Shown one piece after another: positions 1 through 16,080 of a stretch of DNA of 16,080 bases. Numbering within the stretch: position 1 is the stretch's first letter; every line of letters begins with the position of its first letter. The notes below the pieces were generated by a model. The model was not told where the DNA came from. It did not search any database and saw only the letters and a program-made list of their open reading frames with translations. The translations under genes were made by a program, and so were the position numbers. Location: assembly GCA_016188625.1 (NCBI GenBank), contig JACPHL010000203.1, positions 1-16,080 on the forward strand. Reading direction: 5' to 3'. The DNA is from Candidatus Rokuibacteriota bacterium. Its GTDB lineage: Bacteria; Methylomirabilota; Methylomirabilia; Rokubacteriales; JACPHL01.

Positions 1-92
1 CTGACTTGGGCCAGGGACATGCGCGACCCAGCCGTCGCGGGGGCCGCGCGGGGACACACCTCGCAGACCCGATCCTCACCTCCCTCCTCGCC

Positions 93-1250
93 TCACAGGC
101 CCAGGAGCTTCGGGCAGGTTCGGCAACCCTCTGGCGCCGGGGGCAGGGGCTCGGACACCGTCCGACCCGCGCCCGCCGCGGCCATCACCGCGGCCACCAC
201 CCCGGCCGCACGCCGCGCCACGAACTGCTGACGGAAGGCCCGATAGGCCGGGGTCTCCCAGATCTCCAGCAGCTCCTGCCCGCCGAGATCCCCAAACCAG
301 ACCCGCGGGACCCGGAAGCACCGGTCATCAGAAGCCCGGGGAATCTCGGTCTGCCCGGCCAGTCCCATGTACACGCACGGCGAGACTTTGCCGTCGGACG
401 ACACGAAGAGGATCTTCAAGGGGTTGGCCTCGCAGACCGCCACCTCCTCGGGGTCAAGGGGATACGGCCGGAAGGGTAGACCGGCCACCTTCGCTCTGGC
501 CCGGGCCTCTTCGAGGACGCGGGCGAACCCATCCCGGAGACCATCCGGGGCAAAGGCCTTGAGGGTGTCCTGGGCTGGCGTGGGCACATAGTCCAGGTTG
601 GTGGCCACCAGCTCGTCAACCCCCAGGGATGCTGCCAGGTCCACCACCGCCGGAAGCTCAGCCATGTTCGTCTTCGTCATGAGGAAGAAGAGCTCGACCT
701 TCGGGTGCCGGCTCCCCCTCCGGGCTCTGAGGTCCAGAAAACGACCGAGATTTGTCAAGACCCCTGACAGGTCAGAGCCGACCCGTATGGCCCCGTGCGT
801 TGGAGGGGTCGCGCCGGCGATGGAGACCGCCAGGAGGTCGAGGTCCAGGTCGAGGAGCCGTTGACCCGCGAGCGGACCGAGCAGCGTCCCGTTCGTGGTA
901 AAGCCCACCCGGGACCCCGCATGTTTTGCCACCCGGATCATGTCGAAGAGCCGTGGGTGCAGGAGGGGCTCTCCCCATCCTTGAAGGTGCACGAATTCCG
1001 CGTGAGGGAAGGCGCGGGCGACGCGCGAAAACAGCTCCCAGGGAAGATGCCGCGGGCGCCAGCGATCGGCCAGGACGGCCACGGGACACATCACGCAGCG
1101 GAGGTTACAACGCGAGGTGACCTCGATCTGGATGGCGTCGAACACCCGCCCTCGCGCGGGGCCGCCGCCACCCCTCAGGGCCCGGCCCAGCATGAAGATC
1201 ACCCGGGAACCAAGCGATCGCGGCTGACGTGTTTCCCCTCGCGCTGGCAC
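93..1250 (-). CDS. Radical SAM/SPASM domain protein, substrate unknown
   Basis: The 385-residue product has the radical SAM cluster motif CxxxCxxC at C48, C52 and C55, followed by a GWGEP segment (91-95) that matches the family GGEP motif for SAM binding. The C-terminal third carries C273, C292, C311, C376 and C379, as in a SPASM or twitch domain that holds an auxiliary iron-sulfur cluster. A full SPASM domain normally has seven cysteines, so one auxiliary cluster is the safer reading. Family members modify peptides or act on small molecules, and nothing here identifies the substrate. The GTG start at 1250 is chosen because a GGGAGA sequence lies six bases upstream and a -10-like TATACT lies further up. 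An ATG at 1193 is the alternative and keeps both cluster motifs. The gene appears to be monocistronic. Family assignment is firm and specific function is unknown. Confidence 0.9.
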   Translation of the reverse strand: MPARGETRQPRSLGSRVIFMLGRALRGGGGPARGRVFDAIQIEVTSRCNLRCVMCPVAVLADRWRPRHLPWELFSRVARAFPHAEFVHLQGWGEPLLHPRLFDMIRVAKHAGSRVGFTTNGTLLGPLAGQRLLDLDLDLLAVSIAGATPPTHGAIRVGSDLSGVLTNLGRFLDLRARRGSRHPKVELFFLMTKTNMAELPAVVDLAASLGVDELVATNLDYVPTPAQDTLKAFAPDGLRDGFARVLEEARARAKVAGLPFRPYPLDPEEVAVCEANPLKILFVSSDGKVSPCVYMGLAGQTEIPRASDDRCFRVPRVWFGDLGGQELLEIWETPAYRAFRQQFVARRAAGVVAAVMAAAGAGRTVSEPLPPAPEGCRTCPKLLGL

Positions 1251-1269
1251 GGGCTTCTCCCGGCAGCCA

Positions 1270-1299
1270 AGTATAGATCCCGGGATCGGGGACCGGCAG
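1270..1299 (-). promoter_or_regulatory. Putative promoter of the radical SAM gene
   Basis: On the minus strand a TATACT hexamer (1270-1275) is preceded, after an 18-base spacer, by CTGCCG (1294-1299), a weak match to the -35 consensus. The -10 box ends 19 bases before the GTG start. This leaves a short 5' UTR of about 12 bases holding the GGGAGA ribosome-binding site. The -10 match is good for such GC-rich DNA, and the -35 match is poor. Confidence 0.5.
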
Positions 1300-1362
1300 T
1301 AGATTTTTCCGGGGTGATCTGCCAGACGGACAGGTGGCTAGATGGTCCGACCAACCGGCGGA

Positions 1363-1516
1363 GTCGCGGCCGAGCGTGAGGCGGCCAAAGACCCCTTCTT
1401 CAGGAAGGTCTACGACTCCCAGAAGATGTACGCATCCGTGGTGGTCCCCGGCCGTCGTCTCCAGTTCCCCCCCCTACAGATTCATCGCCGACTACTACTG
1501 GCCGGAAAAGAAGTAA
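1363..1516 (+). pseudogene. 3' remnant of a TRAP transporter solute-binding protein (DctP-like), frameshifted
   Basis: From about 1363 the plus strand reads EREAAKDPFFRKVYDSQK and then MYASVVVPGRRLQFP. After a +1 shift at a run of eight C residues (1467-1474) it continues PPYRFIADYYWPEKK to a TAA at 1514-1516. This resembles the extreme C-terminus of DctP-type periplasmic binding proteins of TRAP transporters, which often end in a DPFFKKV...SQ...YA...VVP...PPY...DYYW pattern. The rest of the gene (about 300 residues) is absent, and an in-frame stop precedes the fragment at 1339-1341. Removing one C would restore the frame, so the shift could be a true indel or a homopolymer sequencing error. 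The truncation cannot be explained that way. The fragment ends 17 bases from the trpG stop in tail-to-tail orientation. The identification is from memory of the family pattern. Confidence 0.7.
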
Positions 1517-1533
1517 GGGAGGCCGGCGCGGAG

Positions 1534-2109
1534 TCAGCCGGCGGGGCGCAGCGCGAGGAAGTTCCGGAGCAGGGCCTTGCCTTCCTGGGTGAGGATGGAC
1601 TCCGGGTGGAACTGGACGCCCTCGACGGGGTAGCGGCGGTGCCGCAACCCCATGATCTCCCCGTCCTCCGCGCGGGCCGAGACCTCCAGCTCCGCGGGTA
1701 GGCCCTCCTCCAGCACCGCCAGCGAGTGGTACCGGGTGGCGGCGAACGGCGAGGGGAGCCCGCGGAACACCCCCCGGCCGTCATGATGGATCTCCGAGGT
1801 CTTCCCGTGCATCTGGCGCCGGGCCCGATCCACCCGGCCGCCGAGCGCCTGCCCGAGGGCCTGATGCCCGAGGCAGGCCCCCAGGATCGGGACGGCGGCG
1901 TGGAAGGCGCGGATCAGCGGGACGGAGATCCCGGCGGCCTCCGGGCGCCCCGGCCCCGGCGAGATCACGATCCGCTCCGGCCCGAGCCCGGCGATCTCCT
2001 CGAGCGAGACGGCGTCGTTGCGCGCCACGCGCAGCTCGGCGCCCAGCTCGCCCAGGTACTGGACCAGGTTATAGGTGAAGCTGTCGTAGTTGTCGATCAC
2101 CAGGATCAT
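1534..2109 (-). CDS. trpG: Anthranilate synthase component II (glutamine amidotransferase)
   Basis: The 191-residue class I glutamine amidotransferase releases ammonia from glutamine for TrpE, in the first committed step of tryptophan synthesis. It shows the start [15 protein letters not shown], the PGPGRP oxyanion-strand motif (51-56), the nucleophile C79 in GACLGHQ, and the catalytic pair H168 and E170 in HPES. Its length is normal for TrpG/PabA. The ATG at 2109 lies inside the 3' end of trpE in another frame, so translation is probably coupled to trpE. Such a subunit may also serve aminodeoxychorismate synthase for folate, because no separate pabA is visible. No trpD, trpC, trpF, trpB or trpA follows; the next sequence is a broken TRAP gene fragment. 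Confidence 0.95.
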
Positions 2110-3676
2110 GGACGCCCCGGGCCCAGGGGTGGCCCTGCTCCGCGAGGCGGAGGGCGAGGAGAAGCCCCCGGGCCTTGGAGCAGGTCTCGAGCCACTCCGC
2201 CTTCGGCTCGGAGTCCGCGACGATCCCCGCGCCGACCTGGACGGAGGCCCGGTCGCCGCGGCAGACGATGGTCCGGATGGTGATGCAGGAGTCCAGGTTC
2301 CCCGAGTAGGAGACGTAGCCGACGGCGCCGGCGTAGGGGCCGCGGCGGGCCGGCTCGAGCTCCTCGACGATCTCCATGGCGCGGATCTTGGGCGCGCCGG
2401 TGACGGTCCCCGCCGGGAAGCAGGCCTCCAGCACGTCGATGGCGTCCCGCCCCGGCGCCAGGCGGCCCCGGACGTGGCTCACCAGGTGCATGACGTGGGA
2501 GTAGCGCTCCACGCCCATGAGCTCGCTGACCTCCACCGAGCCCAGCTCCGCCACGCGCCCGACGTCGTTCCGGCCGAGATCGACCAGCATCACGTGCTCG
2601 GCGCGCTCCTTGGGGTCGGCCAAGAGCTCGGCCTCGATGCGGGCGTCCTCGGCCTCGGACATCCCGCGCGGCCGCGTCCCCGCGATCGGCCGGACCTCCA
2701 CGCGCCCGTCCTCGACCCGGACCAGCACCTCCGGGGAGGAGCCGACGAAGGAGGTCCGGCCGAGCCGGAGGAAGAAGAGGTAGGGGGAGGGGTTGATGGC
2801 CCGGAGGGCCCGGTAGACGCGGAACGGGTCCGCGGAGAGCCGGGCATCCAGGCGTCGCGAGAGCACGATCTGGTAGGCGTCGCCCGCGGCGATATGCTCC
2901 TTGGCCCGCTGGACCCGCGCCATGAACGCCTCCTGATCCAGCGAGGAGGTGAACCCCTCCTCGCCGATGGCCACCTGGGGCCTGGTGGTCCACCCCGCCG
3001 GCCGGGTCAGGGGTGCCGGGGCGCGGACGGGCCGCCCCAGCCGGCCCAGGAGCATCCCGATCTTGACCGCGGCGGCGTCGTAGGCGTGGTCGAGGGAGGC
3101 GGCGTCGGTCGCCTCCACGTGGGCGTTGGCGACGGCGAAGAGGCTATGGTGGACGTTGTCGAAGACCAGGAGGTTGTCCGTGAACAGGAACACGGCCTCG
3201 GGGAGCCCGAGGTCGTCGCGGGTGCGCTGGGGGAGGCGCTCGAGATAGCGGACCGCATCGTAGGCAAGGTAGCCGACCGCCCCGCCCTGAAAGCGGGGGA
3301 GCCCCGGCACCCTGACCGGGTGGAACCGGGCGAGGACGCCCCTGAGGGCCTGGAGCGGGTTGCCCGGGGGCAGGCGCTCGGCCCGGCCGTCGGGCCCGCG
3401 CAGGGTGTTGCGCCCCCGCGCGGCTGTCAGGATCATGGACGGCTCCGCGCCCAGGAAGGAGTAGCGCGCCCACCGCTCGCCCCCCTCGACCGACTCGAGG
3501 AGGAACCCGTAGCGGCGCGGCCGGAGCCGCAGGAACGCCGACAGCGGCGTGTCCAGATCGGCCGAGAGCTCGGTGAAGACCGGGACCAGGTTCCCGTGCC
3601 GGGCCAGGGCGCCGAACTCCTCCCGGCTCGGCGACAGCGCCGGGATCCAAAGCCCGGTCGAGCTCAGGGTTCGCAT
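2069..3676 (-). CDS. trpE: Anthranilate synthase component I
   Basis: The 535-residue chorismate-utilising enzyme converts chorismate and ammonia to anthranilate in complex with TrpG. The N-terminal region carries the LLES motif (59-62), part of the tryptophan feedback site and a feature that favours TrpE over PabB. The catalytic half has PIAGTRPRG, the DLGRND segment, and GTVTGAPK (423-430), all hallmark chorismate-binding motifs. The start is the ATG at 3676. No Shine-Dalgarno sequence precedes it and a GATAAT box lies only eight bases away, so the mRNA may be leaderless. The last 14 codons overlap trpG in a different frame, giving a C-terminal tail (about residues 522-535) that is not conserved sequence. 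No leader peptide or attenuator is visible; a leaderless mRNA would exclude one. Feedback inhibition is expected from LLES. Confidence 0.96.
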
Positions 3677-3684
3677 GACGAGCC

Positions 3685-3713
3685 ATTATCGCCGATGGGG
3701 TCCGGCCCGGCAA
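3685..3713 (-). promoter_or_regulatory. trpE promoter, probably giving a leaderless mRNA
   Basis: On the minus strand TTGCCG (3708-3713) and GATAAT (3685-3690) are separated by exactly 17 bases (3691-3707). They match the sigma70 consensus at 4 of 6 and 5 of 6 positions. Only eight bases separate the -10 box from the trpE ATG at 3676. A start site at the usual distance would therefore fall on or beside the A of the start codon. The match is seen in the sequence; leaderless initiation is an inference. Confidence 0.65.
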
Positions 3714-3803
3714 GGCGCAGGCTCGTCTCCCGGTCACGGCCCTCCGGCGGGGCGGCCGGGCCCGCCACCTGGGGTGTCGGGGGGGAGGCGCCTCAGCCGG
3801 CGC

Positions 3804-3832
3804 TTTTTCGAGCCCCCGGGCGGGGGTAGACT
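3804..3832 (+). promoter_or_regulatory. Putative clpS-like gene promoter
   Basis: A TAGACT hexamer (3827-3832) lies seven bases before the ATG at 3840. A poor -35 candidate, TTTTTC (3804-3809), sits 17 bases upstream. The spacer contains the inverted repeat CCCCCG-GG-CGGGGG (3813-3826), which directly abuts the -10 box and could be an operator, although GC palindromes are common here. The layout mirrors the trpE promoter on the opposite strand. Confidence 0.4.
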
Positions 3833-3839
3833 GGAGGGT

Positions 3840-4124
3840 ATGGCGCTTACCCGGCCAAGGCCCGAGACCCTCGACGAGCCCGAGACCGCCGTCGGCCCGC
3901 CCTGGATGACCATCCTCCACAACTGCGACTGCCACACCTTCGAGGAGGTCGTCCGCCAGCTCATGAAGGCGATCGGCTGCTCGGAGGCCGAAGGGTGGGA
4001 GATCGCCTGGCGGATCCACAACACCGGCCAGGCCGTGGTCAAGGTGGGGGGTGAGGACGAGTGCGTCCGGGTCGCCGATATCCTGGCCGAGATCGGCCTG
4101 CGGGTCAGCGTGGTCCAGTCCTAG
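3840..4124 (+). CDS. clpS: ClpS-like ATP-dependent Clp protease adaptor
   Basis: The 94-residue protein matches the ClpS fold. A TILHNCDCHTFEEVV segment (about 24-38) corresponds to the family's VLLNDDxTPMEFVV strand and helix. A WRIHNTGQAVV segment aligns with HVHxxGxA, whose histidine lines the N-degron pocket. ClpS binds proteins with bulky hydrophobic N-terminal residues and passes them to ClpA or ClpC. The usual pocket Asn-Asp pair reads N-C-D here, so the specificity may differ. GGAGGG lies only one base before the ATG, too close for a ribosome-binding site, while a -10-like box lies seven bases upstream, consistent with leaderless translation. An ATG at 3906 is an alternative but would remove residues ahead of the first strand. 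No clpA is in the window. It is divergent from trpE and convergent with the ATP-grasp gene. Confidence 0.8.
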   Translation: MALTRPRPETLDEPETAVGPPWMTILHNCDCHTFEEVVRQLMKAIGCSEAEGWEIAWRIHNTGQAVVKVGGEDECVRVADILAEIGLRVSVVQS

Positions 4125-4203
4125 CGCCCGCTCCGCCGCCCCGTCCGGACCGCCACACTGCCGGTGGGTGACCGTGACGGCCCTGGCCTTGGATCCCTTC
4201 TCC

Positions 4204-4247
4204 CCTCCCCGGGGGGCCGTCCGAGGGGACGGAGCCCCCCTCCGAGT
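4204..4247 (-). repeat. Partial copy (C) of a dispersed intergenic repeat
   Basis: Read on the minus strand this 44-base segment starts ACTCGGAGGGGGGCTCCG, two bases after the ATP-grasp stop codon, and ends in GGGGAGG. It aligns over about 41 bases with the start of the copy at the right edge (15966 onward). Its first 15 bases are identical to those of the copy following the pilT stop. The remaining, more conserved part of the repeat is missing here. Confidence 0.6.
4211..4240. terminator. Strong GC hairpin between convergent clpS and ATP-grasp genes
   Basis: GGGGGGCCGTCC and GGACGGAGCCCCCC pair over 12 bases with a two-base AG bulge and a short GAGG loop. The hairpin lies in the 124-base gap between two convergent genes, where a bidirectional terminator is expected. 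Neither strand has a U-tract after the stem, so it is either a U-less terminator or a 3'-end protecting structure. It is part of repeat copy C. Confidence 0.5.
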
Positions 4248-4248
4248 A

Positions 4249-5271
4249 TTAGCCTAAGCGATCCGGGCGCCAGTTGAGGCCGAGGTTCACGATCCGCTGC
4301 AGGAGGGCCGCGTAGGAGACCCCGGCCAGCTCCGCGGACTCGGCGAAGTCGTCGCCGTAGGCGATCTCCGGGTTCGGGTTCGCCTCAAGGACGAAGACGT
4401 TCCCGTCGGCGTCGAGCCGGAAGTCGAGCCGGGCGTAGCCGGAGAGCTCGAGGCTGCGATAGACGCGCTTGGCCAGGGCCTGGATCCGCTCCGTCAGCCC
4501 CTCGGGCAGCTCCTTGGCCGGCCCGGAGCCGATCCCGTACTTGGCGCGGTACTTGTGGCTCCACTTGACGCGGGCGGTGGCGATCCGGTGCTCGTCCTCC
4601 GGCATCCTGGCGAAGTAGAGCTCCCAGACCGGGAAGACCTGGAGGCGCGTGTTCCCCAGGACCCCCACGTAGAGCTCGCGCCCCTCGATGTACTGCTCCA
4701 CGATAGCGTCAGTCCCCACGTGCCCGTGGACGAACGCCACGCGCTCCCGGAGCCTGGCCTCGTCGTCCACGATGGAGGCCTTGGAGATCCCCAGGGAGGC
4801 CTCCTGGGAGACAGACTTGACGATGGCGGGGAAGCTCATCCGCTTCGGGAACTTGACCCGGCGGCCGACGGGGAAGACGACGAACTGGGGCGCGGGGATC
4901 CGGTGGTAGGAGAAGATCTTCTTCGACAGCCCCTTGTGCCGGCCGAGCATCAGCCCCCAGGGGTTGCAGCCGGTGTACGGCACCCGCAACAGCTCGAGGT
5001 AGGAGACCACGTTCTGGTCGTAGACGGCGACGCCGTCGAACTCCTCCAGCAGGTTGAAGGCGATGTGGGGCTTCCACTCCTCGATGGCCGTGCGGATGAC
5101 GTCCAGGTCGCTCCGGACGCCCAGGGGCCGCACCTCGTGCCCCATCTCCCGGAGGGTCGTGACCACGTCGTACTCCGTCTTCCACGCCACCGTGGCCAGA
5201 TCGACGTCGCCCGGATTCTCCGGCGGGACCAGGTCCTCGTGCATCAGGACCAGCACGCGGAGCTTCTTCAT
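4249..5271 (-). CDS. D-Ala-D-Ala ligase-like ATP-grasp enzyme
   Basis: The 340-residue protein has an N-terminal preATP-grasp region (about 1-105, including NLLEEFDG at 73-80) and a C-terminal ATP-grasp domain. The latter shows the ATP-binding lysine region at K152, a small loop EASLGISKAS (157-166), VEQYIEGREL (191-200) and the metal-binding E296 and N298 in LEANPNPEI. D-Ala-D-Ala ligases usually read EVNTLPG at that site, so the acceptor is probably different. The fold predicts ATP-dependent joining of an amine to a carboxylate through an acyl phosphate; the substrates are unknown. Its ATG overlaps the stop of the upstream metallopeptidase gene as ATGA, so the two proteins are very likely made together and act in one process. 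A dedicated peptide or cell-wall ligase is more likely than the housekeeping Ddl, because no murein gene is adjacent. Confidence 0.87.
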   Translation of the reverse strand: MKKLRVLVLMHEDLVPPENPGDVDLATVAWKTEYDVVTTLREMGHEVRPLGVRSDLDVIRTAIEEWKPHIAFNLLEEFDGVAVYDQNVVSYLELLRVPYTGCNPWGLMLGRHKGLSKKIFSYHRIPAPQFVVFPVGRRVKFPKRMSFPAIVKSVSQEASLGISKASIVDDEARLRERVAFVHGHVGTDAIVEQYIEGRELYVGVLGNTRLQVFPVWELYFARMPEDEHRIATARVKWSHKYRAKYGIGSGPAKELPEGLTERIQALAKRVYRSLELSGYARLDFRLDADGNVFVLEANPNPEIAYGDDFAESAELAGVSYAALLQRIVNLGLNWRPDRLG

Positions 5272-6344
5272 AGCGCCACCCGATGGCGCCCGCTGTGGAG
5301 GTAGTTCATGGTCTGCACGGTCAGGAGCACCGTGAAGTCCAGCTTCACCTGGTCCTCGGGCGAGGCCAGCCGGAGGCTCAGCTCCCGGCAGCGGTCGATC
5401 ATGTCCTCGAAGACGCGGTCGATGGTGTACTGGTACTCCCCGGTCCAGCTCGCCACCTTGCGCCGGACCTCCTTGCGGATCCGGTTCAGGAAGCCGGCGG
5501 CCGTCGGGTTGCCCCGGTGCTCCGGGGCGTCGGAGAAGAGCCGCCGGAGGTCCCGGTCGTAGAACTCCGGGTACTCGAGCCCGTAGTGCTGCCGCCGCTG
5601 CCTGTAGTGCTTGCGGAGGGTCTTGCGCAGGCGGTGGAGGGGATCGATGCGCGCCCGCGAGTTGACCGGCGGCCTCCGGTCGGCGATCTCGCGCATCAGC
5701 TCGTCCATGTACTGAAGCTTCTTCAGGGCCGGCCAGCCCACGTAACGCTCCCGCCACATGGAGTCCGGGTCGAGCCAGACCGCGAAGGTCTCGGCGAAGT
5801 CCTCGTCGGGGTGGCTCTGGGCATACCAGAAGTCGAGGTGGAGGACGTAGCTCCGGCTGTAGGGCTTGGGCGTGTAGTGCTCGGGGTAGGGCAGGGACGA
5901 CTTCCCGAAGAGCCGCTGCCGGCGGCGGCGGCGGGAGAGGCGGTAGGCGTGGTCGATGGCGTGCCCGGCTTCGTGCCGGATGATCCGCATGCACTCTTCG
6001 GGGTCCTCCCCCTCGGCCTCGAACATCTGGTCCCGCTCCAGCCGCGTCAGGCGCGGATGGGCCAGGTAGAACGGCAGGGCGATCCCGGAGACCTCGTCGG
6101 GGGTGAACCAGTCGTCCGAGAGCCAGACGTGCGGCCGGAAGCGGAGGTTCCGGGCCTCCAGCTCCCTGTAGAGCTGCTGGACCCGCTCCTCGAGCAGGCT
6201 CCCCTCGATCCGGAGGTCGAGGTCCGAGAGCCGGAGGTCGAGGAGCTTCTCGTCCGGCCAGCTCACCCACTCAGGCTCGGGGGGTGGGCCGGCCTCCAGC
6301 GCCTCCGAAGGCGAGGCACCGGTCTTCTCCCCTGCCGCAGTCAT
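5268..6344 (-). CDS. Zinc metallopeptidase with HEAGH motif, coupled to ATP-grasp ligase
   Basis: The 358-residue protein contains HEAGHAIDH (124-132), in which H124 and H128 would bind zinc and E125 act as base, and DFAETF (182-187), in which E185 is a plausible third ligand. This HExxH plus downstream FAE arrangement occurs in putative zinc-binding metallopeptidases related to the lethal-factor-like gluzincins. There is no signal peptide or membrane segment, so a cytoplasmic role is likely. An arginine-rich stretch (138-144) follows the motif, and the C-terminal part (about 230-358) is mostly helical and basic. The ATG at 6344 is preferred because a TACACT box sits nine bases upstream. An in-frame GTG at 6371 would precede that box. 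The stop overlaps the ATP-grasp start by four bases. The natural substrate is unknown. Confidence 0.85.
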   Translation of the reverse strand: MTAAGEKTGASPSEALEAGPPPEPEWVSWPDEKLLDLRLSDLDLRIEGSLLEERVQQLYRELEARNLRFRPHVWLSDDWFTPDEVSGIALPFYLAHPRLTRLERDQMFEAEGEDPEECMRIIRHEAGHAIDHAYRLSRRRRRQRLFGKSSLPYPEHYTPKPYSRSYVLHLDFWYAQSHPDEDFAETFAVWLDPDSMWRERYVGWPALKKLQYMDELMREIADRRPPVNSRARIDPLHRLRKTLRKHYRQRRQHYGLEYPEFYDRDLRRLFSDAPEHRGNPTAAGFLNRIRKEVRRKVASWTGEYQYTIDRVFEDMIDRCRELSLRLASPEDQVKLDFTVLLTVQTMNYLHSGRHRVAL

Positions 6345-6353
6345 CCCACCCTT

Positions 6354-6359
6354 AGTGTA
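6354..6359 (-). promoter_or_regulatory. Putative -10 box of the metallopeptidase/ATP-grasp operon
   Basis: TACACT on the minus strand lies nine bases before the ATG at 6344, in the 69-base gap after the hemG stop. No convincing -35 hexamer is seen at 16-18 bases. The distance implies a very short or absent 5' UTR and argues for the 6344 start. Read-through from hemG is also possible. Confidence 0.4.
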
Positions 6360-6413
6360 GCGCAGGGCCACCCCGGACGCCGAAGCCGAAGGGCGGCGGG
6401 GGGTCGGGGGGTT

Positions 6414-7850
6414 TCAGTGAAAGTCGTGCCCTGACCCCGGGGCCAGGAGGAGGTGGGAGGCGGCGGTTTCGGCGGAGTGGATGGTGTCGGCGAGGCCGAC
6501 GCCGCGGTAGGCGCTCCCGGCCAGGGCGAGGCCGGGGTGGCGGGCCAGACGGGCCTCGATCCCGGCCACCAACTCAAGATGTCCCACCCGATACTGAGGC
6601 ATCGCGGCCGGGTGGCGGTGGACGCGGACCAGCTCGGGGGGCCCGGTGATCCCGAGCAGGGCGGCCAGCTCGGCCCGGGCGGTGACGGCGAGCGCCTCGT
6701 CATCCAGCGCGAGCATCCCTTCCTGGAGCGCCCCGCCGAGGAAGGCGCGGAGGAGGACGTGCCCTTCGGGCGCGCGGCCGGGGTACTTCAGGCTCGAGAA
6801 GGTGCAGGCGATGATCGGGCGCCGCTCGCTCCGGGGGACCACGACGCCGAAGCCGTCGAGCGGGTGGGCGATCGCCTCCCGCCGGTAGCCGAGCGTCACG
6901 GTAGCTGACGAGGCGTAGGGGATCCCGGCGAGATCGCGCGCCAGCTCGGGGTCGAGGTCGGCCGCGATCCGGGCGGCGGCGTGCGCCTCCGTCGCCAGCA
7001 TCACCCCGTCGGCCTCGAGCGTGCCGCCATCGGCGAGATGGATCCGCCACCGCGGCGGCCGGTCCGATCGTGAGAGCCCCGCGACCGGGCTCTTGAGCCT
7101 GACCGCATCCGCGAGCCGACCCGCCAGCGCCTCCACCAGCTCCCCCATCCCGCCCGCCAGGCTCGCGAAGAGGCCGTAGCGGACCCCGCTCGCCGACGCG
7201 GCCCCGGCCCGCCGTGCCGCCTCGGCCCGCAGGCCGAGGATCAGGCTCCGGTGGCGCCGCTCCAGCTCCAGGAAGCGCGGCATCGTCGCGGCCAGGCTCA
7301 GGCTCTCGGGGTCGGCGGTGTAGATCCCGGCGACCAGGGGCTGGGCGACGCGCTCGAGGGCCTCCCGCCCGAGCCTCCGCCTGACGAAGCTGGCCAGGCT
7401 CTCGTCCGCGGTCTCCCTCCCGCGCGGCAGGACCAGATCCAGGGCCATCCTGAGCTTCCCCGGCCAGGAGAAGAGCCGTGAGCGCAGAAGCGGCCCGAGC
7501 CGCGTCGGGGCGAGGAGGAGGAATCCCTCGGGGAGCGGATGGAGGCGGCCCCGGTGGACGACGAAGACCCGCCGCGAGCCCTCGCGCGTCCCGATCAGCC
7601 GCTCACCGAGGCCGAGGCGCTCGACGAGGGCGAGGCCCCAGGGCTTGTCGGTGAGGAAGGAGTCCGGCCCGGCTTCGATGAGGAAACCGCCGGCCCGCTC
7701 CGTGGCGATCGTCCCCCCGAGCCGGTCGCGCGCCTCGAGGAGCGTGAGCGAGAGCCCGAGCCCCCGCTCCCGCGCCAGCTCGGTCAGCCGATGGGCCGCG
7801 GCGAGCCCGGCGATCCCGCCGCCGATGACGATCAGCCGCGCCAGGGCCAC
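6414..7850 (-). CDS. hemG: Protoporphyrinogen/coproporphyrinogen III oxidase (HemG/HemY type)
   Basis: The 478-residue FAD enzyme removes six electrons from a porphyrinogen to give the porphyrin late in haem synthesis. The N-terminal LIVIGGGIAGLAAAHRL dinucleotide-binding fold (G10, G12, G15) is followed by LLEARDRLGG, where the acidic residue binds the ribose, and by GPDSFLTDKP, typical of HemY-type oxidases. A C-terminal AGSAYRGVGLADTIHSA segment closes the FAD site. Length is normal. The start is GTG at 7850, with GAGGGAGC just upstream, 25 bases after the hemH stop. It is last in the hemE-hemH-hemG operon. Whether it uses protoporphyrinogen IX or coproporphyrinogen III cannot be read directly; the gene order resembles the Gram-positive hemEHY operon, where the latter applies. 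Confidence 0.93.
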   Translation of the reverse strand: MALARLIVIGGGIAGLAAAHRLTELARERGLGLSLTLLEARDRLGGTIATERAGGFLIEAGPDSFLTDKPWGLALVERLGLGERLIGTREGSRRVFVVHRGRLHPLPEGFLLLAPTRLGPLLRSRLFSWPGKLRMALDLVLPRGRETADESLASFVRRRLGREALERVAQPLVAGIYTADPESLSLAATMPRFLELERRHRSLILGLRAEAARRAGAASASGVRYGLFASLAGGMGELVEALAGRLADAVRLKSPVAGLSRSDRPPRWRIHLADGGTLEADGVMLATEAHAAARIAADLDPELARDLAGIPYASSATVTLGYRREAIAHPLDGFGVVVPRSERRPIIACTFSSLKYPGRAPEGHVLLRAFLGGALQEGMLALDDEALAVTARAELAALLGITGPPELVRVHRHPAAMPQYRVGHLELVAGIEARLARHPGLALAGSAYRGVGLADTIHSAETAASHLLLAPGSGHDFH

Positions 7851-7875
7851 GCTCCCTCGGTCGGGACCGGGGCGC

Positions 7876-8805
7876 TCACCCTCGGGCCGCCTCCCGGACG
7901 AGGTCGGCGAGCAGGGCGATGAAGGCGGGGTGGTCGTTCACCGCGGGCGCCCGGTGAAAGCCGACCCCGACCGCCCCGGCGATCGCCCGGGCCTCGACGT
8001 CGAGGTCGTAGAGGACCTCGACGTGCTCGACGACGAAGCCGACCGGCACGACGACGAGGTCCCCGGCCCCGTCGCGGGCCAGCGCCCGGATCGCCTCGCC
8101 GATGTCGGGCTCGAGCCAGGGCTCCTCAGGCCGGCCGCTCCGGCTCTGGTAGGCGACCGACCCGGCCGGCCGGCCGAGGCGCTCGGCGACCAGCCGCGCG
8201 GAGGTGGCGAGCTGAGCGACGTAGGGGGAGGCCTCGGCCATCGCCACGGGCACGCTGTGGGCGGTGAAGACCAGCCTCGCCCGCTCCCGCCGCCCGGGCG
8301 GGATGAGGGCGAGGGTCTCCTCGACCCGGGCGGCCACGGCCTCGATGAAGCGGGGGTGAGCGAACCAGGGCGGGGCGTACTCGACCTCGGGCGCCCCCGC
8401 GCCGAGCCGCGCCCGCGCCTCGGCGACCGCGGCCTGGTAGCGCTCCCAGGAGGCCTCGGTCTGGTGCGGGGCGAGGATGATCCCGAGCGCCCGCCGGACC
8501 CCGCCCTCCGCCATCCGCGCGAGCGCCTCGTTGAGGAACGGCGTCCAGTGCCGCATCCCCACATGCACCGGAAGGCTCGGCCCTTCCCGCTCCAGGACGG
8601 CCCCGAGCGCCCGGGCCTGGCGGACGGTCAGCTCGGTCAGGGGCGAGCGCCCCCCGATCGCCTCGTAGTGCCGGGCGACCGCCTCGGCCCGCCCAGGCGG
8701 GACCGGACGGCCGGCGAGGACGCGGGCCAGGAACGGGCGGATCTCCTCGGGCCGGGTCGGGCCCCCGAAGGCGATCAGGAGGACGGCGTCGAGACGCCCC
8801 CCCAT
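7876..8805 (-). CDS. hemH: Ferrochelatase
   Basis: The 309-residue enzyme inserts ferrous iron into the porphyrin ring. Visible features are the N-terminal AFGGPTRPEEIRPFL segment, the catalytic histidine H183 in FTAHSVP, and the EHVEVLYDLD motif with E263, matching the family's H183/E264 pair in the Bacillus enzyme. There is no cysteine-rich C-terminal extension, so no [2Fe-2S] cluster is expected, and no membrane anchor. The N-terminal wording resembles the actinobacterial and Gram-positive monomeric form, which metallates coproporphyrin III, so that activity is possible. The ATG at 8805 overlaps the hemE stop as TGATG with no separate ribosome-binding site, indicating coupled translation. 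Confidence 0.95.
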   Translation of the reverse strand: MGGRLDAVLLIAFGGPTRPEEIRPFLARVLAGRPVPPGRAEAVARHYEAIGGRSPLTELTVRQARALGAVLEREGPSLPVHVGMRHWTPFLNEALARMAEGGVRRALGIILAPHQTEASWERYQAAVAEARARLGAGAPEVEYAPPWFAHPRFIEAVAARVEETLALIPPGRRERARLVFTAHSVPVAMAEASPYVAQLATSARLVAERLGRPAGSVAYQSRSGRPEEPWLEPDIGEAIRALARDGAGDLVVVPVGFVVEHVEVLYDLDVEARAIAGAVGVGFHRAPAVNDHPAFIALLADLVREAARG

Positions 8806-9827
8806 CAGCGCCGGGAGAGCTCGTGGACCGCCTCCACCAGGGCGATCACGTGCTCGACCGGGGTCTCGGGGAGGACCCCGTGGCCGAGGTTGAAGATGTG
8901 CCCGAGCCGGCCCGCGGCCCGCTCCAGGATCGCCCGGGCCTGCCGCCGGATCTCGGCCGGCGGCGCCAGGAGGGCCGCCGGGTCGAGGTTCCCCTGCACC
9001 CCCACCCCGGGGCCGAGCCGGGCCCACGCCTCGCCGAGGTCCACGCGCCAGTCCAGGCCGATGACGTCCCCGCCCGCCTCGCGCATCAGCTCGAGCAGCC
9101 CCGCGGTCCCGGTGCCGAAGTGGATGACCGGCACCCCGGGCGCGAGGCCCTGGATCACCGCGCGGGTGTGCGGGAGCACGAGCTCCCGGTAGGCCGCCGG
9201 GGCCAGGCACCCGACCCAGGTGTCGAAGAGCTGGACGACCTCGACGCCCGCCGCGATCTGCCCGTTCAGGTAGCGCGCGGTGAGCCGGGCGAGCTTGTCG
9301 AGCAGGGCGTGCCAGGCCCCGGGCTCGCCGTGCATGAGGCGCTTGGCGCGGAGCCAGTCGCGCGAGCCCCCGCCCTCGATCAGGTAGGCGGCCAGGGTGA
9401 AGGGGGCGCCGGCGAAGCCGATGAGCGGGACCTTCCCGTCGAGCGCGGCCCGGGCCCGCTTCGCGGTCTCGAAGACGAAGGGGACCGCCTCCTCGGGGAG
9501 GACCTCCGGCAGGCGCGCCACGTCCTCGGCGGTCCGCACCGGGCGCTGGATCACCGGGCCGTCGCCCCGGCTGTACTCGAGCCCCACCCCCATCGGCTCG
9601 AGGACGAGGAGGATGTCGGCGAAGAGGATCGCCGCATCCACCCCGAGCCTGCCGACCGCCGTGACGGTGACCTCCGCCGCGGCGTCGGGGTCTCGGCAGA
9701 GCTCGAGGAAGCCGCGCCGCGCGCGGAGGGCGCGGTACTCCGGCAGATACCGCCCGGCCTGCCGCATGAGCCAGACCGGGGTGAACGCGGTCGGCTCGCG
9801 CCGACAGGCCTTGAGGAACGGATGCAT
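8805..9827 (-). CDS. hemE: Uroporphyrinogen decarboxylase
   Basis: The 340-residue cytoplasmic enzyme decarboxylates the four acetate side chains of uroporphyrinogen III to give coproporphyrinogen III. It shows the first signature PVWLMRQAGRYLPEYR (18-33), with R22 and R26 binding substrate, D71 in FADIL as the central aspartate, the second signature GFAGAPFTLAAYLIEGGGS, and the C-terminal NLGHGVLPETP histidine segment. Length is standard. The ATG at 9827 has GAGGGGG five to seven bases upstream. It is the first gene of hemE-hemH-hemG, transcribed from a promoter at 9879-9907. Confidence 0.97.
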   Translation of the reverse strand: MHPFLKACRREPTAFTPVWLMRQAGRYLPEYRALRARRGFLELCRDPDAAAEVTVTAVGRLGVDAAILFADILLVLEPMGVGLEYSRGDGPVIQRPVRTAEDVARLPEVLPEEAVPFVFETAKRARAALDGKVPLIGFAGAPFTLAAYLIEGGGSRDWLRAKRLMHGEPGAWHALLDKLARLTARYLNGQIAAGVEVVQLFDTWVGCLAPAAYRELVLPHTRAVIQGLAPGVPVIHFGTGTAGLLELMREAGGDVIGLDWRVDLGEAWARLGPGVGVQGNLDPAALLAPPAEIRRQARAILERAAGRLGHIFNLGHGVLPETPVEHVIALVEAVHELSRR

Positions 9828-9878
9828 CAGCGCCCCCTCGCCCCGCCCCGCTCGCCCGGCCGGCGGCGGGACAAGGTG

Positions 9879-9907
9879 AGGGTACCGGCGGCGGGGTGGG
9901 CAGTCAA
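9879..9907 (-). promoter_or_regulatory. Promoter of the hemE-hemH-hemG operon
   Basis: TTGACT (9902-9907, minus strand) and TACCCT (9879-9884) are separated by 17 bases. The -35 box matches at five of six positions, and the -10 box has the conserved TA and final T. The predicted start near 9872 gives a 5' UTR of about 45 bases containing GAGGGGG before the hemE ATG. It therefore differs from the leaderless starts elsewhere in this window. Confidence 0.65.
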
Positions 9908-9936
9908 GGGAAGGCCCGACCGGCCGGGGGACCTGT

Positions 9937-9958
9937 CCGTCCGCCCTCCGGCGGACGG
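9937..9958. other. Perfect 9-bp hairpin upstream of the hem promoter
   Basis: CCGTCCGCC and GGCGGACGG pair perfectly around a CTCC loop. On the minus strand the hairpin lies after pilT and 30 bases before the hem -35 box; no U-tract follows. It may insulate the hem operon from pilT read-through or act as an operator. The palindrome CCCCGCGGGG (9960-9969) adjoins it. Confidence 0.4.
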
Positions 9959-10063
9959 CCCCCGCGGGGAGGCGGCGGCCCCGAGCGGAGCGTTAAGCGG
10001 AACGGCGCGGGTCCCCGCCGTGAGCGAGCCGGGTGGGGAAGCCGACAGGCGGGCGAAAGGCGG

Positions 10064-10189
10064 AGAGGAGGGGCCCCGCCCGGCGAGCCACTGGCGGGTG
10101 CGCCGTGGAGCGTGCGGAGCGAGGGGTCGAGGCCTCCCCGGGGGGCACGGCTGAGAGGGCTATAGGGGGGCACCAGCCCCCCTCCGAGT
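10064..10189 (-). repeat. Dispersed intergenic repeat, copy B
   Basis: Read on the minus strand it begins ACTCGGAGGGGGGCT three bases after the pilT stop codon and runs to CCCCTCCTCT. Its 63-base core (10064-10126) matches 59 of 63 bases of the reverse complement of 16012-16074. The hairpin end and the GGGGAGGC junction are also shared. It occupies most of the 365-base gap between pilT and hemE. The gap's remaining part (9970-10063) has no recognisable gene or RNA. Confidence 0.75.
10165..10182 (-). terminator. Hairpin immediately downstream of the pilT-type gene
   Basis: GGGGGGC and GCCCCCC pair around a four-base loop, starting 11 bases after the stop at 10193. The stem is followed by TATAGCCC on the minus strand rather than a U-tract, so it is a weak intrinsic terminator at best and may protect the mRNA 3' end. 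It forms the leading end of repeat copy B. Confidence 0.45.
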
Positions 10190-10192
10190 CCC

Positions 10193-11290
10193 CTAGGGCC
10201 GGACAGGAGGGACGCGGTCGGGGAGCTCGCGGGCGACCCGGATCTCGAAGTCCACCGGGGTCGTGCAGAAGCGGAGCGCGGTCTCGTAGGTGATCAGGCC
10301 GTCCCGGAAGAGGGTGAAGATGCACTGGTCGAAGGTCTGCATCCCGTAGACCTCCTGGCCCTGGGCGATGAACTCGGGGATCTGGCCGGCCCGGGCCGGG
10401 TCCTCGATGCAGCGCTGGATCGTCGTCGTCGTCACCATGACCTCGCAGGCGGGGATCCGGCCGACGCGATCGGCCCGGGGCATCAGCCGGAGCGAGACCA
10501 CCCCCCGCAGGACCTGGGCGAGCTGGTAGCGGATCTGCCGCTCGTGGTGCGGCGGGAACTGGGCGATGATCCGGTTGACGGTCTCGGCCGCGTTCAGGGT
10601 GTGGAGCGTGGAGAGGACCAGGTGCCCGGTTTCGGCCAGGGCCAGCACGGTGGCGACGGTCTCCAGGTCCCGCATCTCGCCCACCATGATGACGTTAGGG
10701 TCGAGCCGGAAGGAGAGGCGCAAGGCCTCGGCGAAGGAGGCGGTATCCGATCCCACCTCCCGCTGGGTGATGAGGGCGCCGTGGTCCTCGAAGAGGAACT
10801 CGATGGGATCCTCGATGGTCAGGATGTGGCAGCGCCGGGAGCGGGCGATGTGGTTGATCATGGCGGCCAGGGTCGTGGACTTGCCGCTCCCGGCCGGGCC
10901 GGTGGCCAGGATGAGCCCGCGCTCCTCCAGGGCCAGGCGCTCGATCACGGGCGGGAGGTTGAGCCGGTCGAGGACCGGCGGGAGGAAGGGGATCACCCGG
11001 AAGGCGAGCCCGGTCTCCCCCTGGGCGTGGAAGACGCTGGCCCGGAAGCAACCGAGGTCGGCGTGCATGGAAGGGAAGTCCACGCCCCCGTCGCGCTCGA
11101 ACCGGGCCGCCAGGGAGGGGTTGAGGAGCCGTCGCGCCGCCCGGTCGATCTCCTCGGGCTCGATGGCGGGCGTGTTGTCGAGGACCCGGAGCTCCCCGTG
11201 GACCCGGATGACCGGCGGCTTCCCGGGGCGGAGGTGGACGTCGGTGGCCCCGGCCTTCAGGCCGGCCCGGAGGATTTCATCGAGGTTCAC
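10193..11290 (-). CDS. pilT: PilT-type secretion/retraction ATPase
   Basis: The 365-residue hexameric ATPase belongs to the type II/IV secretion superfamily, whose PilT branch drives type IV pilus retraction. It has an N-terminal PAS-like region with TDVHLRPG (16-23), the Walker A motif GPAGSGKST (131-139), the Asp box around ILTIEDPIEF (156-165), the Walker B-like VIMVGEMRD (200-208) and a His box in STLHTLNAAE (227-236). The C-terminal YGMQTFDQ and TTPVDFEIR segments occur in Geobacter-type PilT proteins. The GTG at 11290 is chosen because AAGGAGG lies 11 bases upstream and the family N-terminus begins there; a longer frame to 11392 crosses the predicted promoter. No other pilus gene is present, so it is an orphan here, and gliding or secretion roles cannot be excluded. 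Confidence 0.9.
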   Translation of the reverse strand: MNLDEILRAGLKAGATDVHLRPGKPPVIRVHGELRVLDNTPAIEPEEIDRAARRLLNPSLAARFERDGGVDFPSMHADLGCFRASVFHAQGETGLAFRVIPFLPPVLDRLNLPPVIERLALEERGLILATGPAGSGKSTTLAAMINHIARSRRCHILTIEDPIEFLFEDHGALITQREVGSDTASFAEALRLSFRLDPNVIMVGEMRDLETVATVLALAETGHLVLSTLHTLNAAETVNRIIAQFPPHHERQIRYQLAQVLRGVVSLRLMPRADRVGRIPACEVMVTTTTIQRCIEDPARAGQIPEFIAQGQEVYGMQTFDQCIFTLFRDGLITYETALRFCTTPVDFEIRVARELPDRVPPVRP

Positions 11291-11357
11291 GGCTCGCTCG
11301 GCCTCCTTGGACGAGCGCCCACCGCGTCGGGACCCGGCGGGGCGGGACGCGAGCGCC

Positions 11358-11386
11358 AGCGTACCACCGCGCCCCGGTGCTGACAA
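11358..11386 (-). promoter_or_regulatory. Putative pilT promoter
   Basis: TTGTCA (11381-11386, minus strand) and TACGCT (11358-11363) are separated by 17 bases. The -35 box matches at five of six positions; the -10 box keeps only TA and the final T. This gives a 5' UTR of about 60 bases that contains AAGGAGG. An AT-rich tract lies about 37 bases upstream. Confidence 0.5.
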
Positions 11387-11407
11387 CGACAAAACCGCTC
11401 GCCACGG

Positions 11408-11455
11408 CCAGAGACGAGCTATCTCATTAAAAAAAATGGTAAATCATGTCTCTGG
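11408..11455. promoter_or_regulatory. Inverted repeat flanking an AT-rich core between pit and pilT
   Basis: CCAGAGAC (11408-11415) and GTCTCTGG (11448-11455) are perfect 8-base inverted copies around 32 bases that include eight consecutive A residues and little GC. The base composition contrasts sharply with everything around it. It lies upstream of the putative pilT promoter and just after the pit stop codon. It may be a regulator-binding site or UP-like activating element, or a weak structure ending pit transcription. Confidence 0.45.
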
Positions 11456-11463
11456 AAGCGCCC

Positions 11464-12459
11464 CTACCTGAGGAGGGAGAGCCCCCGGGCGATCGCCCAG
11501 GCGAGCAGCCCGCAGACCGGGAAGGTCAGGATCCAGGCGATGACGATCTGGCGCCCCACGCCCCAGCGGACGGCCGAGAAGCGGCTGGTGCTCCCGACCC
11601 CCATGATCGAGGTGTTGATCGTGTGGGTGGTGGAGAGGGGGATCCCCAGGCGCGAGGCCAGCTCGATGGCGCTGGCTGCGGCCGTCTCGGCGGAGAAGCC
11701 CCGGACGGGGTCGAGCTTCGTGAGCCGGAGCCCCATGGTCTTCACGATCCGCCACCCGCCGATCGCGGTCCCCACCCCCATGGTGAGGCTGCAGATCAGG
11801 ATGACCCAGAACGGGACCCGGAACTCGGGGAGGACGCCGCCCAGGACCAGGGTCAGGGCGAAGACCCCGATGAACTTCTGCCCGTCGTTCGAGCCGTGGC
11901 TGAAGGCCATGAAGGCCGCCGAGAAGATCTGGAGCCGGCCGAAGAGGCGGCGGATCGTGCCCGGACGACCCGCCCAGAAGATCCGGAAGATGGCGGCCGT
12001 GATGAGCAACCCCCCGAAGAAGCCGAGGAAGGTGGAGAAGCCCAGGCCGATGAGGACCTTCTGCCACCCCTCCCAGAGCAGGACCCCGGGCCCCGCCGTG
12101 GCCAGCGCCGCCCCGGAGAGCCCGGCGACGAGGGCGTGGCTCTCGCTGGTCGGGAGCCCGTAGTACCAGGCGAGGGTGCTCCAGGCCACGATGGCGAGCA
12201 TCGCGGCCGCCACGGTGACCAGGTTGATGGCGCTGGCGTCCACGATCCCCTTGCCGATGGTGGCGGCGACGGCGGTCCCCGACATGGCGCCGAGGGCGTT
12301 GAGGACGCTCGCCAGGGCCACGGCCTGGTAGGGGGTGAGGACGCGCGTGGAGACCACCGTGGCGATGGCGTTGGGCGCGTCGGTCCAGCCGTTGACGAAC
12401 TCGGCGGCGAGGACCAGGAGGAGGACGATCCAGAGCGGGGAGAGCAGGAAGGGCTCCAT
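11464..12459 (-). CDS. pit: PiT-family inorganic phosphate (or sulfate) permease
   Basis: The 331-residue inner-membrane transporter of the PiT family imports phosphate with protons or sodium. It has about ten hydrophobic segments. Diagnostic features are the repeated PD001131-type signatures FVNGWTDAPNAIATVVSTR (21-39) and FSHGSNDGQKFIG (186-198), plus GLPTSESHALVAG (101-113) and its second-half counterpart GIPLSTTHTI (272-281), reflecting the internal duplication. Length is at the short end for bacterial PiT proteins. The ATG at 12459 overlaps the stop of a short upstream ORF as TGATG, and no Shine-Dalgarno sequence is evident. PiT genes often neighbour a PhoU-like DUF47 gene, but none is in this window. 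Sulfate transport by related CysP proteins is a less likely alternative. Confidence 0.93.
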   Translation of the reverse strand: MEPFLLSPLWIVLLLVLAAEFVNGWTDAPNAIATVVSTRVLTPYQAVALASVLNALGAMSGTAVAATIGKGIVDASAINLVTVAAAMLAIVAWSTLAWYYGLPTSESHALVAGLSGAALATAGPGVLLWEGWQKVLIGLGFSTFLGFFGGLLITAAIFRIFWAGRPGTIRRLFGRLQIFSAAFMAFSHGSNDGQKFIGVFALTLVLGGVLPEFRVPFWVILICSLTMGVGTAIGGWRIVKTMGLRLTKLDPVRGFSAETAAASAIELASRLGIPLSTTHTINTSIMGVGSTSRFSAVRWGVGRQIVIAWILTFPVCGLLAWAIARGLSLLR

Positions 12460-12518
12460 CAGCGCGCCACGGGGATCGGGTCCATCGGGAGGTGACCGGG
12501 GGAAGGCCTCGCGGGCAT
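12459..12518 (-). CDS. Possible 19-residue leader ORF coupled to pit
   Basis: A short frame starts at ATG 12518 and ends at a TGA that overlaps the pit start as TGATG. It would encode MPARPSPGHLPMDPIPVAR, rich in proline. A clean -10-like TATACT lies nine bases before its ATG, so a leaderless mRNA would begin with this ORF and ribosomes finishing it would sit on the pit start. An internal ATG at 12485 gives an eight-residue version. There is no homology evidence. It could simply be the 5' UTR, but the coupling geometry is specific. Confidence 0.4.
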   Translation of the reverse strand: MPARPSPGHLPMDPIPVAR

Positions 12519-12527
12519 CGCCCGATC

Positions 12528-12533
12528 AGTATA
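12528..12533 (-). promoter_or_regulatory. Putative -10 box of the pit transcript
   Basis: TATACT on the minus strand is an unusually AT-rich hexamer for this region. It lies between the lipoprotein stop (12569) and the short leader ORF (12518). No clear -35 hexamer is found at 17 bases. It suggests that pit has its own promoter rather than relying on read-through. Confidence 0.45.
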
Positions 12534-12568
12534 GCAGCGAAGGGCCACGCCGGCGCCGAGGGGCCCGC

Positions 12569-12892
12569 TCAGCCGCGGAGGGGGAGCCGCCCCTTGAGCC
12601 GCCCGGGCGTCTCGCCCTCGAGCGCCCGCGGGAGCTCCCAGAACGGCACCGCCTCCCAGGGGCCCTGGTAGTGCGGGGCGCGGTACCACACCGGGTCCCG
12701 GTAGAGGTAGTAGCGGCCGCCCAGGAAGAAGACCTCGGGCTGGACGCCGGTGAGCCAGTAGATCCTGGGCTCGCCCGGCAGGAGATAGAAGCGGACCGGC
12801 GCGACCACCACCGTGGTCGGCGGGCGCTCGGGGGGCACGAGGGCGCACCCGGCGAGGAGGAGCGCCAGGCCGAGGGCGGGGCGGAGGCGCAT
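12569..12892 (-). CDS. Small lipoprotein of unknown function
   Basis: The 107-residue product starts with a lipoprotein signal: charged MRLR, a hydrophobic stretch, and a lipobox LAGC with the acylated cysteine at position 16. Residue +2 is alanine, which under the E. coli rule favours the outer membrane. The mature part contains GGRYYLYRDPVWYRAPHYQGP (roughly 57-77), resembling a YYR...WYR...YxGPW pattern seen in small exported proteins of proteobacteria. GAGGTGG lies seven bases before the ATG, and the gene begins two bases after the ABC exporter membrane subunit stops, so it is probably the last gene of that operon. Whether it assists the exporter is unknown. Confidence 0.82.
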   Translation of the reverse strand: MRLRPALGLALLLAGCALVPPERPPTTVVVAPVRFYLLPGEPRIYWLTGVQPEVFFLGGRYYLYRDPVWYRAPHYQGPWEAVPFWELPRALEGETPGRLKGRLPLRG

Positions 12893-12894
12893 GT

Positions 12895-14577: not shown

Positions 14578-15314
14578 CCCCGTCCCGCGAAGTGGAGGTA
14601 GAGCGCCTCGAGCGAGGCGCCCGGCAGGCCCGCGATCCGGCGCAGGGTCTCGAGGTCGCCCTCCTGGACGAGGCGCCCGGCCTCGAGGAGGCCGACCCGG
14701 TGGCAGACCGACTCGGCGAAGGCCAGGGTGTGGGTGGAGAGCAGGACCGTCCCCCCGTCGCGGGCGAAGGCCAGGAGGAGCTCGCGGGTCTTGATGGCGC
14801 TCTCCGGGTCCAGGCCCACGATCGGCTCGTCGATCACCAGGACCCGGGGCTCGTGGAGCAGGCTCGCCAGGATCGTGAGCTTCTGCTTGTTCCCCCGCGA
14901 GTAGCGCTCCATGAAGCCGTCGATGACCTCGGTGATGGGGAAGAGCCCGAGCAGCCGCTCAATCCGGACCCCCCGCGCCGCCCGGGGGATCCCGTACAGC
15001 TCGCCGACCAGGTGGAGGAACTCCCGGCCCGAGAGCTTGTCGTAGACGAACGGCTCGTCGGGGACGTAGCCGAGGGCCCGCTTGGCGCGCTCGGGCTCGG
15101 CCACGAGATCGACGCCGGCGACCTCGACCCGGCCGCTGGTGGGGCGGTAGAGCCCGACGGCCATCTTGACCGTGGTGGTCTTTCCCGACCCGTTCGGCCC
15201 GATGAGGCCGTAGATCTCGCCCGCCCGGACCGCGATGGAGAGGTCGTCCACCGCGACGAGCGGGCCGAACCGCTTCGTCAGGCGGTCGAGGCGGAGGACG
15301 AGCCCGTCCCGCAT
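14574..15314 (-). CDS. ABC transporter ATP-binding protein
   Basis: The 246-residue nucleotide-binding subunit has Walker A GPNGSGKT (39-46), a Q-loop region near YVPDEP (83-88, with D in place of the usual Q), the signature YSRGNKQKL (138-146) replacing LSGGQ, Walker B VLVIDEP (158-164) with catalytic E163, the D-loop GLDP (167-170) and switch histidine H195. The YSRGxKQKL signature is typical of ABC-2 exporter ATPases. The ATG at 15314 has GGGGGAGGG directly upstream and lies 17 bases after the transporter gene before it. It is coupled to the membrane subunit by a four-base overlap. Confidence 0.95.
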   Translation of the reverse strand: MRDGLVLRLDRLTKRFGPLVAVDDLSIAVRAGEIYGLIGPNGSGKTTTVKMAVGLYRPTSGRVEVAGVDLVAEPERAKRALGYVPDEPFVYDKLSGREFLHLVGELYGIPRAARGVRIERLLGLFPITEVIDGFMERYSRGNKQKLTILASLLHEPRVLVIDEPIVGLDPESAIKTRELLLAFARDGGTVLLSTHTLAFAESVCHRVGLLEAGRLVQEGDLETLRRIAGLPGASLEALYLHFAGRG

Positions 15315-15331
15315 CCCTCCCCCGGGGGCGC

Positions 15332-15955: not shown

Positions 15956-15965
15956 GATTCCGCGC

Positions 15966-16080
15966 GGAGGGGGGCTCCGCCCCCCTCGGATGGCCCTCGG
16001 GGAGGCGGCAGCCCCTCGCTCCACACGCTCCGCGGCGCACCCGTCTGTGGCTCGCCGGGCGGGGCCCCTCCTCTTTGTCC
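15966..16080 (+). repeat. Dispersed intergenic repeat, copy A (runs to the window edge)
   Basis: Read on the plus strand it starts CGGAGGGGGGCTCCG and contains the 63-base core at 16012-16074, matching the reverse complement of 10064-10126 at 59 of 63 positions. A hairpin of GAGGGGGGC and GCCCCCCTC around a TCC loop (15967-15987) forms its leading end. It lies 11 bases upstream of the VUT gene start, so its orientation relative to the neighbouring gene differs from copies B and C. Its far end may lie outside the window. Confidence 0.75.

Follow-up and report, generated by a model that had tools for sequence, protein, structure and literature searches.

A zinc peptidase and an ATP-grasp ligase kept as a gene pair across bacterial phyla: a possible make-and-cut module

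A 16,080-nucleotide stretch of Candidatus Rokuibacteriota DNA (contig JACPHL010000203.1, positions 1-16,080, the window analysed here) encodes on its minus strand a zinc metallopeptidase (P0001, positions 5268-6344, 358 residues) and, directly after it, an ATP-grasp ligase (P0003, 4249-5271, 340 residues), and we find these two genes paired far beyond chance. The pairing is conserved, the ligase has lost the substrate motifs of D-alanine-D-alanine ligase (Ddl), and both proteins retain their catalytic residues. Conservation of the two-gene unit over many phyla, and in most relatives of Nitrospira, leads us to suggest a dedicated make-and-cut cycle. By analogy with RimK/RimB, we propose, with a probability of roughly 0.45, that the pair would form a cytoplasmic ligase-peptidase module built from unrelated parts and acting on a protein or peptide substrate common to both enzymes. 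A preceding interpretation made from the letters of the window alone (the sequence-only reading) had described the same two genes and a ClpS-like neighbour; on re-reading the sequence, all of its coordinates and motifs for the three genes were correct, including HEAGH at residues 124-128 of the peptidase and EANPNPEI at residues 296-303 of the ligase.

The stop codon of the peptidase gene and the start codon of the ligase gene share the four bases ATGA (5268-5271, minus strand), an overlap of -4. Within the same order, the first nine complete peptidase relatives to be found (L004-L012, about 40% identity) all adjoin a ligase gene, and a scan of 84,980 species genomes returned at least 577 relatives. 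We surveyed the neighbourhoods of the best 80 of these (59-71% identity), which, judged from record titles and the ligase tree, come from Nitrospirota, Acidobacteriota, Gemmatimonadota, Nitrospinota, Planctomycetota, Myxococcota and Bdellovibrionota, so that the pair is found in seven phyla. Adjacency confined to the source genome, which would have refuted the sequence-only reading, is thus not what is seen. The ligase lies directly 3' of the peptidase in nearly all relatives where the contig permits, and 63 pairs from several phyla show an overlap of exactly -4; the ATGA junction on which the sequence-only reading had relied is thus conserved. Seven loci (L022, L024, L055, L078, L080, L082, L085) have no ligase directly downstream, and in three of their genomes (G096, G100, G101) the genes stand apart, with the ligase at another site (58-65% identity) and both still present. 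The claim of a one-to-one unit held up in the Nitrospiraceae, a family known for nitrite oxidisers. Among 147 genomes, 127 have a peptidase match and 124 a ligase match, all 124 within the 127, giving 124 with both, 20 with neither, three with the peptidase match only and none with the ligase only (Fisher p ~1e-21, relatedness uncorrected). Of the three peptidase-only cases, G107 has a fragment, G171 a decayed copy carrying two stops, and G175 gives a marginal match; several Nitrospiraceae carry two pairs per genome. Pairwise identities of peptidase and ligase correlate over 70 loci (r = 0.89), which common descent alone could yield. One could argue that the two are simply co-expressed housekeeping enzymes with separate substrates, as a few genomes do have one gene without a matching other; however, the near-perfect co-occurrence and co-loss, and a translational overlap maintained across phyla in unrelated neighbourhoods, make this very improbable. 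A unit present in 124 of the 147 sampled Nitrospiraceae and in several other phyla likely does something basic.

The ligase could easily be annotated as a second D-Ala-D-Ala ligase. Its model (predicted local distance difference test, pLDDT, 91.7) superposes on Ddl structures with Z of about 33, its closest folds are all Ddl and Van ligases, and K152, E192, K236, R281, D283, E296 and N298, the ATP and Mg residues by alignment, are invariant; fold and residues together place it in the ATP-grasp superfamily. In these respects it is like Ddl, but its substrate motifs set it apart, as do its model scores and its place in the tree. The Ddl substrate motifs are replaced in all aligned pair ligases. 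In P0003, FNLLEEFDG (residues 72-80, window 5032-5058, minus strand) stands in place of HG..GEDG, E(I/V)NT.PG gives way to EANPNP (Mg-binding motif EANPNPE, residues 296-302, window 4366-4386, minus strand), and DYxxKY is gone. The ligase scores 111 bits against the TIGR01205 cut-off of 245.65 and also misses the other listed Ddl and Van models. The true Ddl of the source genome lies on another contig (C274) and scores 237 bits with PF07478, versus 97 for the pair ligase; in a maximum-likelihood tree it falls among the Ddl sequences, which are split from the pair ligases with 100/100 support, though long branches meet there. A housekeeping Ddl is thus ruled out by model scores, motifs, tree and the genome's own Ddl, and the sequence-only reading, for which clustering with Ddl would have been fatal, was right to set the ligase apart. 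Alignment and model indicate that it is a protein of Ddl fold with an intact ATP-grasp site and a different substrate. The Ddl and Van folds nearest to it could speak for a cell-wall role, in which the ligase would make an alternative stem-peptide end or cross-bridge that the peptidase trims. We consider this quite unlikely, given that the D-Ala pocket motifs are lost, a separate Ddl is encoded in the genome, cell-wall genes do not recur near the pair and the peptidase appears, by eye, to have no signal peptide.

The peptidase carries the zinc-binding motif HEAGH at residues 124-128 (window 5961-5975, minus strand) and a conserved YAQSHPDEDFAE block at residues 174-185 (5790-5825, minus strand). 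H124, E125 and H128 are invariant in both of its subtypes, and within the block Y174, E181 and E185 are invariant as well. From what is known of zincin families, the block probably supplies the third zinc ligand and the catalytic tyrosine; the spacing of seven between Y174 and E181 is presumably that of the catalytic tyrosine and third zinc ligand in M34-type enzymes. The model, built on 37 similar sequences (pLDDT 81.5), has a zincin core at residues ~44-223 and a helical C-terminal part. Against known structures the core gives Z of 6-8.4, with lethal factor at 8.4 (139 residues) and Pro-Pro endopeptidases at 6.9. Because Foldseek alone yields no significant match for the model, we treat the predicted M34-type resemblance as modest; it concerns the fold only and says nothing on toxicity. 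A search by sequence for solved relatives gave none that was convincing. The invariant HExxH, a downstream glutamate and a zincin fold at modest Z nevertheless identify a zincin metallopeptidase. PF15887 (Peptidase_Mx) gives the window protein 25.3 bits, under its cut-off of 27, so that the protein is a weak relative of this family; each of the 37 aligned relatives matches the model with an E-value of 0.1 or better (4.6e-8 at best). The pair peptidase thus has HExxH and a zincin core in common with Peptidase_Mx and M34-type zincins, but lies just below the Pfam cut-off, has the extra helical part and lacks a secretion signal. On this last point the sequence-only reading was borne out by eye, the N-terminus being polar with no hydrophobic stretch like that of a signal peptide. 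Between HEAGH and Y174, residues 156-170 (window 5835-5879) form a low-confidence loop with a mean identity of 0.86, perhaps a lid ordered by substrate.

The most conserved of the peptidase segments compared is its C-terminus, LHSGRHRVAL (residues 349-358, window 5271-5300, minus strand). All 87 type-A peptidases examined end at the same residue and share an unvarying L at -10, G at -7 and H at -5. Mean identity is 0.88 in the tail, 0.83 in the active-site block and 0.75 over the whole protein; despite this highest conservation the tail is predicted to be disordered. In six of the seven loci without a downstream ligase the tail is retained, with other codons and stop codons, which points to a constraint at the protein level. 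It is therefore unlikely that the tail is conserved as a ribosome-binding site for the ligase, since it persists where the ligase is not downstream. The tail may be tied to the ligase: -HRVAL is a candidate target or docking element, and offers a direct handle for testing a make-and-cut cycle.

The two enzymes appear to be the whole recurrent unit, since, outside Nitrospira synteny, no gene longer than 90 residues is found repeatedly next to the pair and no short open reading frame within 900 bases of it is common across phyla. No Graspetide-like precursor was found in that search. No third recurrent partner was detected, the recurring neighbours being Nitrospira-specific only; in the nearest relatives, the other window genes that were tested do not reappear next to the pair. 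Plasmid or phage cargo was rejected too: no copy of the peptidase occurs in 72,556 plasmids, and viral contigs gave only two distant peptidase matches (39%) and no ligase relative. Both matches are encoded on IMG/VR contigs listed as viral (L200:3001-3966 and L201:3001-3618).

How might such a pair work? In the module that we favour, the ligase would use ATP to convert a carboxylate into an acyl-phosphate, the chemistry of the ATP-grasp superfamily, and join it to an amine to form a product other than D-Ala-D-Ala. Translated immediately ahead of the ligase from the overlapping gene, the zinc peptidase would cleave this same substrate and so either take off the group that the ligase has added or expose an end for the ligase to modify. 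The likeliest substrate would be the terminus of a cytoplasmic protein or peptide; no precursor, exporter or third partner was detected beside the pair. We infer the shared substrate, its protein or peptide nature and the direction of the cycle from the features described above.

Several points weigh against this module. Gene coupling makes action on one bond plausible and goes no further, and activity, substrate and complex are likewise predictions from sequence. Three Acidobacteriota genomes (G095, G098, G099) have the peptidase and a sole ligase elsewhere at 35-38% identity, G097 has the peptidase with no ligase detected, and the Nitrospiraceae genome G125 holds an additional lone ligase. 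Two loci (L024, L085) keep the tail though the sole ligase of their genomes is a 37-38% relative, and type-B pairs lack the conserved tail, their peptidase ends being longer and variable. Finally, plasmid pTHIMO01 of Thioflavicoccus mobilis (L203:1557-7038) carries a 31% ligase relative in an amino-acid biosynthesis operon. The tail observations also count against a narrower reading, in which the ligase controls the peptidase by binding or adding to its C-terminal tail, which the peptidase may itself trim. Although the fixed end, high identity and predicted disorder would suit such control, and an ATP-grasp enzyme requires a carboxylate that a fixed C-terminus supplies, the tail may equally be a folding element, another docking site or a degradation signal, and the disorder comes from a model resting on those 37 sequences; we judge this reading unlikely. 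The closed circuit that it would allow, in which the ligase extends the -HRVAL end of its partner, the peptidase trims it and ATP-driven extension sets protease activity, is a long shot.

The plasmid operon bears on the main rival, a small-molecule route in which the ligase would make a dipeptide or a non-protein amino-acid amide, and the peptidase would hydrolyse the product or its precursor, for instance to turn over an osmolyte, a store or a signal. Free amino acids are what Ddl-type ligases join, and the operon encodes SbnA (2,3-diaminopropionate synthase), a diaminobutyrate transaminase and an ornithine cyclodeaminase homologue, with KamA facing it, possibly a diamino-acid amide pathway. 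However, no biosynthetic gene recurs beside the pair, the zincins of nearest fold act, as far as their families are known, on polypeptides, and the peptidase does not occur on plasmids, where the 31% ligase relative resides. We hold this route to be possible and lean against it, keeping the protein- or peptide-directed module as our preferred reading.

Further relatives of the ligase, and other ATP-grasp genes, are found in other settings. Rhizobial plasmids carry relatives at 30-33% identity, the copy on pNGR234a (L202:5890-8972) lying upstream of a CapA-family gene. Lone Acidobacteriota ligases at 35-38% identity to P0003 (L196:6417-7436, L197:5375-6394 and also L195) stand near what by eye is a CarD-like gene, in genomes that hold a type-A peptidase elsewhere. 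A fused double ATP-grasp protein of 687 residues (L199:3881-7104, contig G104:C27) has a gene overlapping one for a peptidase that by eye is DmpA-type (S58)-like; this looks like one more pairing of a ligase with a peptidase, here an unrelated one. At L198:3297-7565 (G103:C168), two tandem Ddl-like ATP-grasp genes are followed by what appears by eye to be an acetyltransferase/histone-deacetylase-like fusion.

Two neighbours in the window were judged to lie outside the module. Upstream of the pair on the minus strand lies hemE-hemH-hemG, and a heme operon link was rejected because L082 is the sole other pair locus with hemE and hemG nearby. The ClpS-like gene (3840-4124, plus strand; PF02617, 60 bits) is convergent with the pair and ends 124 bases from the ligase stop. 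The sequence-only reading had speculated that the ligase or peptidase alters protein N-termini read by ClpS. This did not survive comparison, as clpS adjoins the pair at this locus and at no other pair locus, and a PF02617 match is absent from the four nearest pair-bearing genomes; a ClpS-linked N-degron system is therefore rejected. The altered pocket motif that it had pointed out, NCD, is indeed present, but does not mark the pair, since it also occurs in the ClpS of G031, where ClpS and pair are on different contigs. NCD is a lineage trait. The replacement of NDD by NCD in two genomes of one order (window 3840-4124 and L180:1462-1728, 71% identical) is a lineage-specific change in the N-degron pocket.

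The theme of a ligase coupled to a peptidase is already known. A literature search did not find a Ddl-type ligase and an M34-like zincin combined as a two-gene unit, though prior mention is possible, notably in the amidoligase review of Iyer et al. 2009. Like the pair, Graspetide-like ATP-grasp branches 7 and 8 are linked to peptidases with no precursor gene found, but they involve other ATP-grasp families, many unrelated peptidases and complex loci (PMC8939145). The Anbu operon (Anbu, ATP-grasp, alphaE, transglutaminase-like) also joins a ligase with hydrolase genes, and tagging has been proposed for it (PMC6376114); in contrast to the pair it has four genes, a proteasome-like hydrolase and a glutathione-synthetase-like ATP-grasp enzyme. 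The rlo operon of Pseudomonas aeruginosa (RloA/B/C) combines a protease and a cytosolic ATP-grasp enzyme, whereas its protease is a secreted aspartic protease and a third gene encodes a membrane transglutaminase-like protein (PMC12239564). The best experimental precedent is RimK/RimB of the Pseudomonas RimABK system, a coupled cytoplasmic ATP-grasp ligase and protease in which RimB takes off glutamates that RimK has attached to RpsF and, in addition, stimulates RimK (PMC11957791). RimK belongs to another ATP-grasp family, its partner is a retropepsin-like aspartic protease instead of an HExxH zincin, and the pair has no RimA-like third gene. If the pair does run a make-and-cut cycle on protein ends, its unrelated chemistry would join the few reversible amide modifications known for bacterial proteins.
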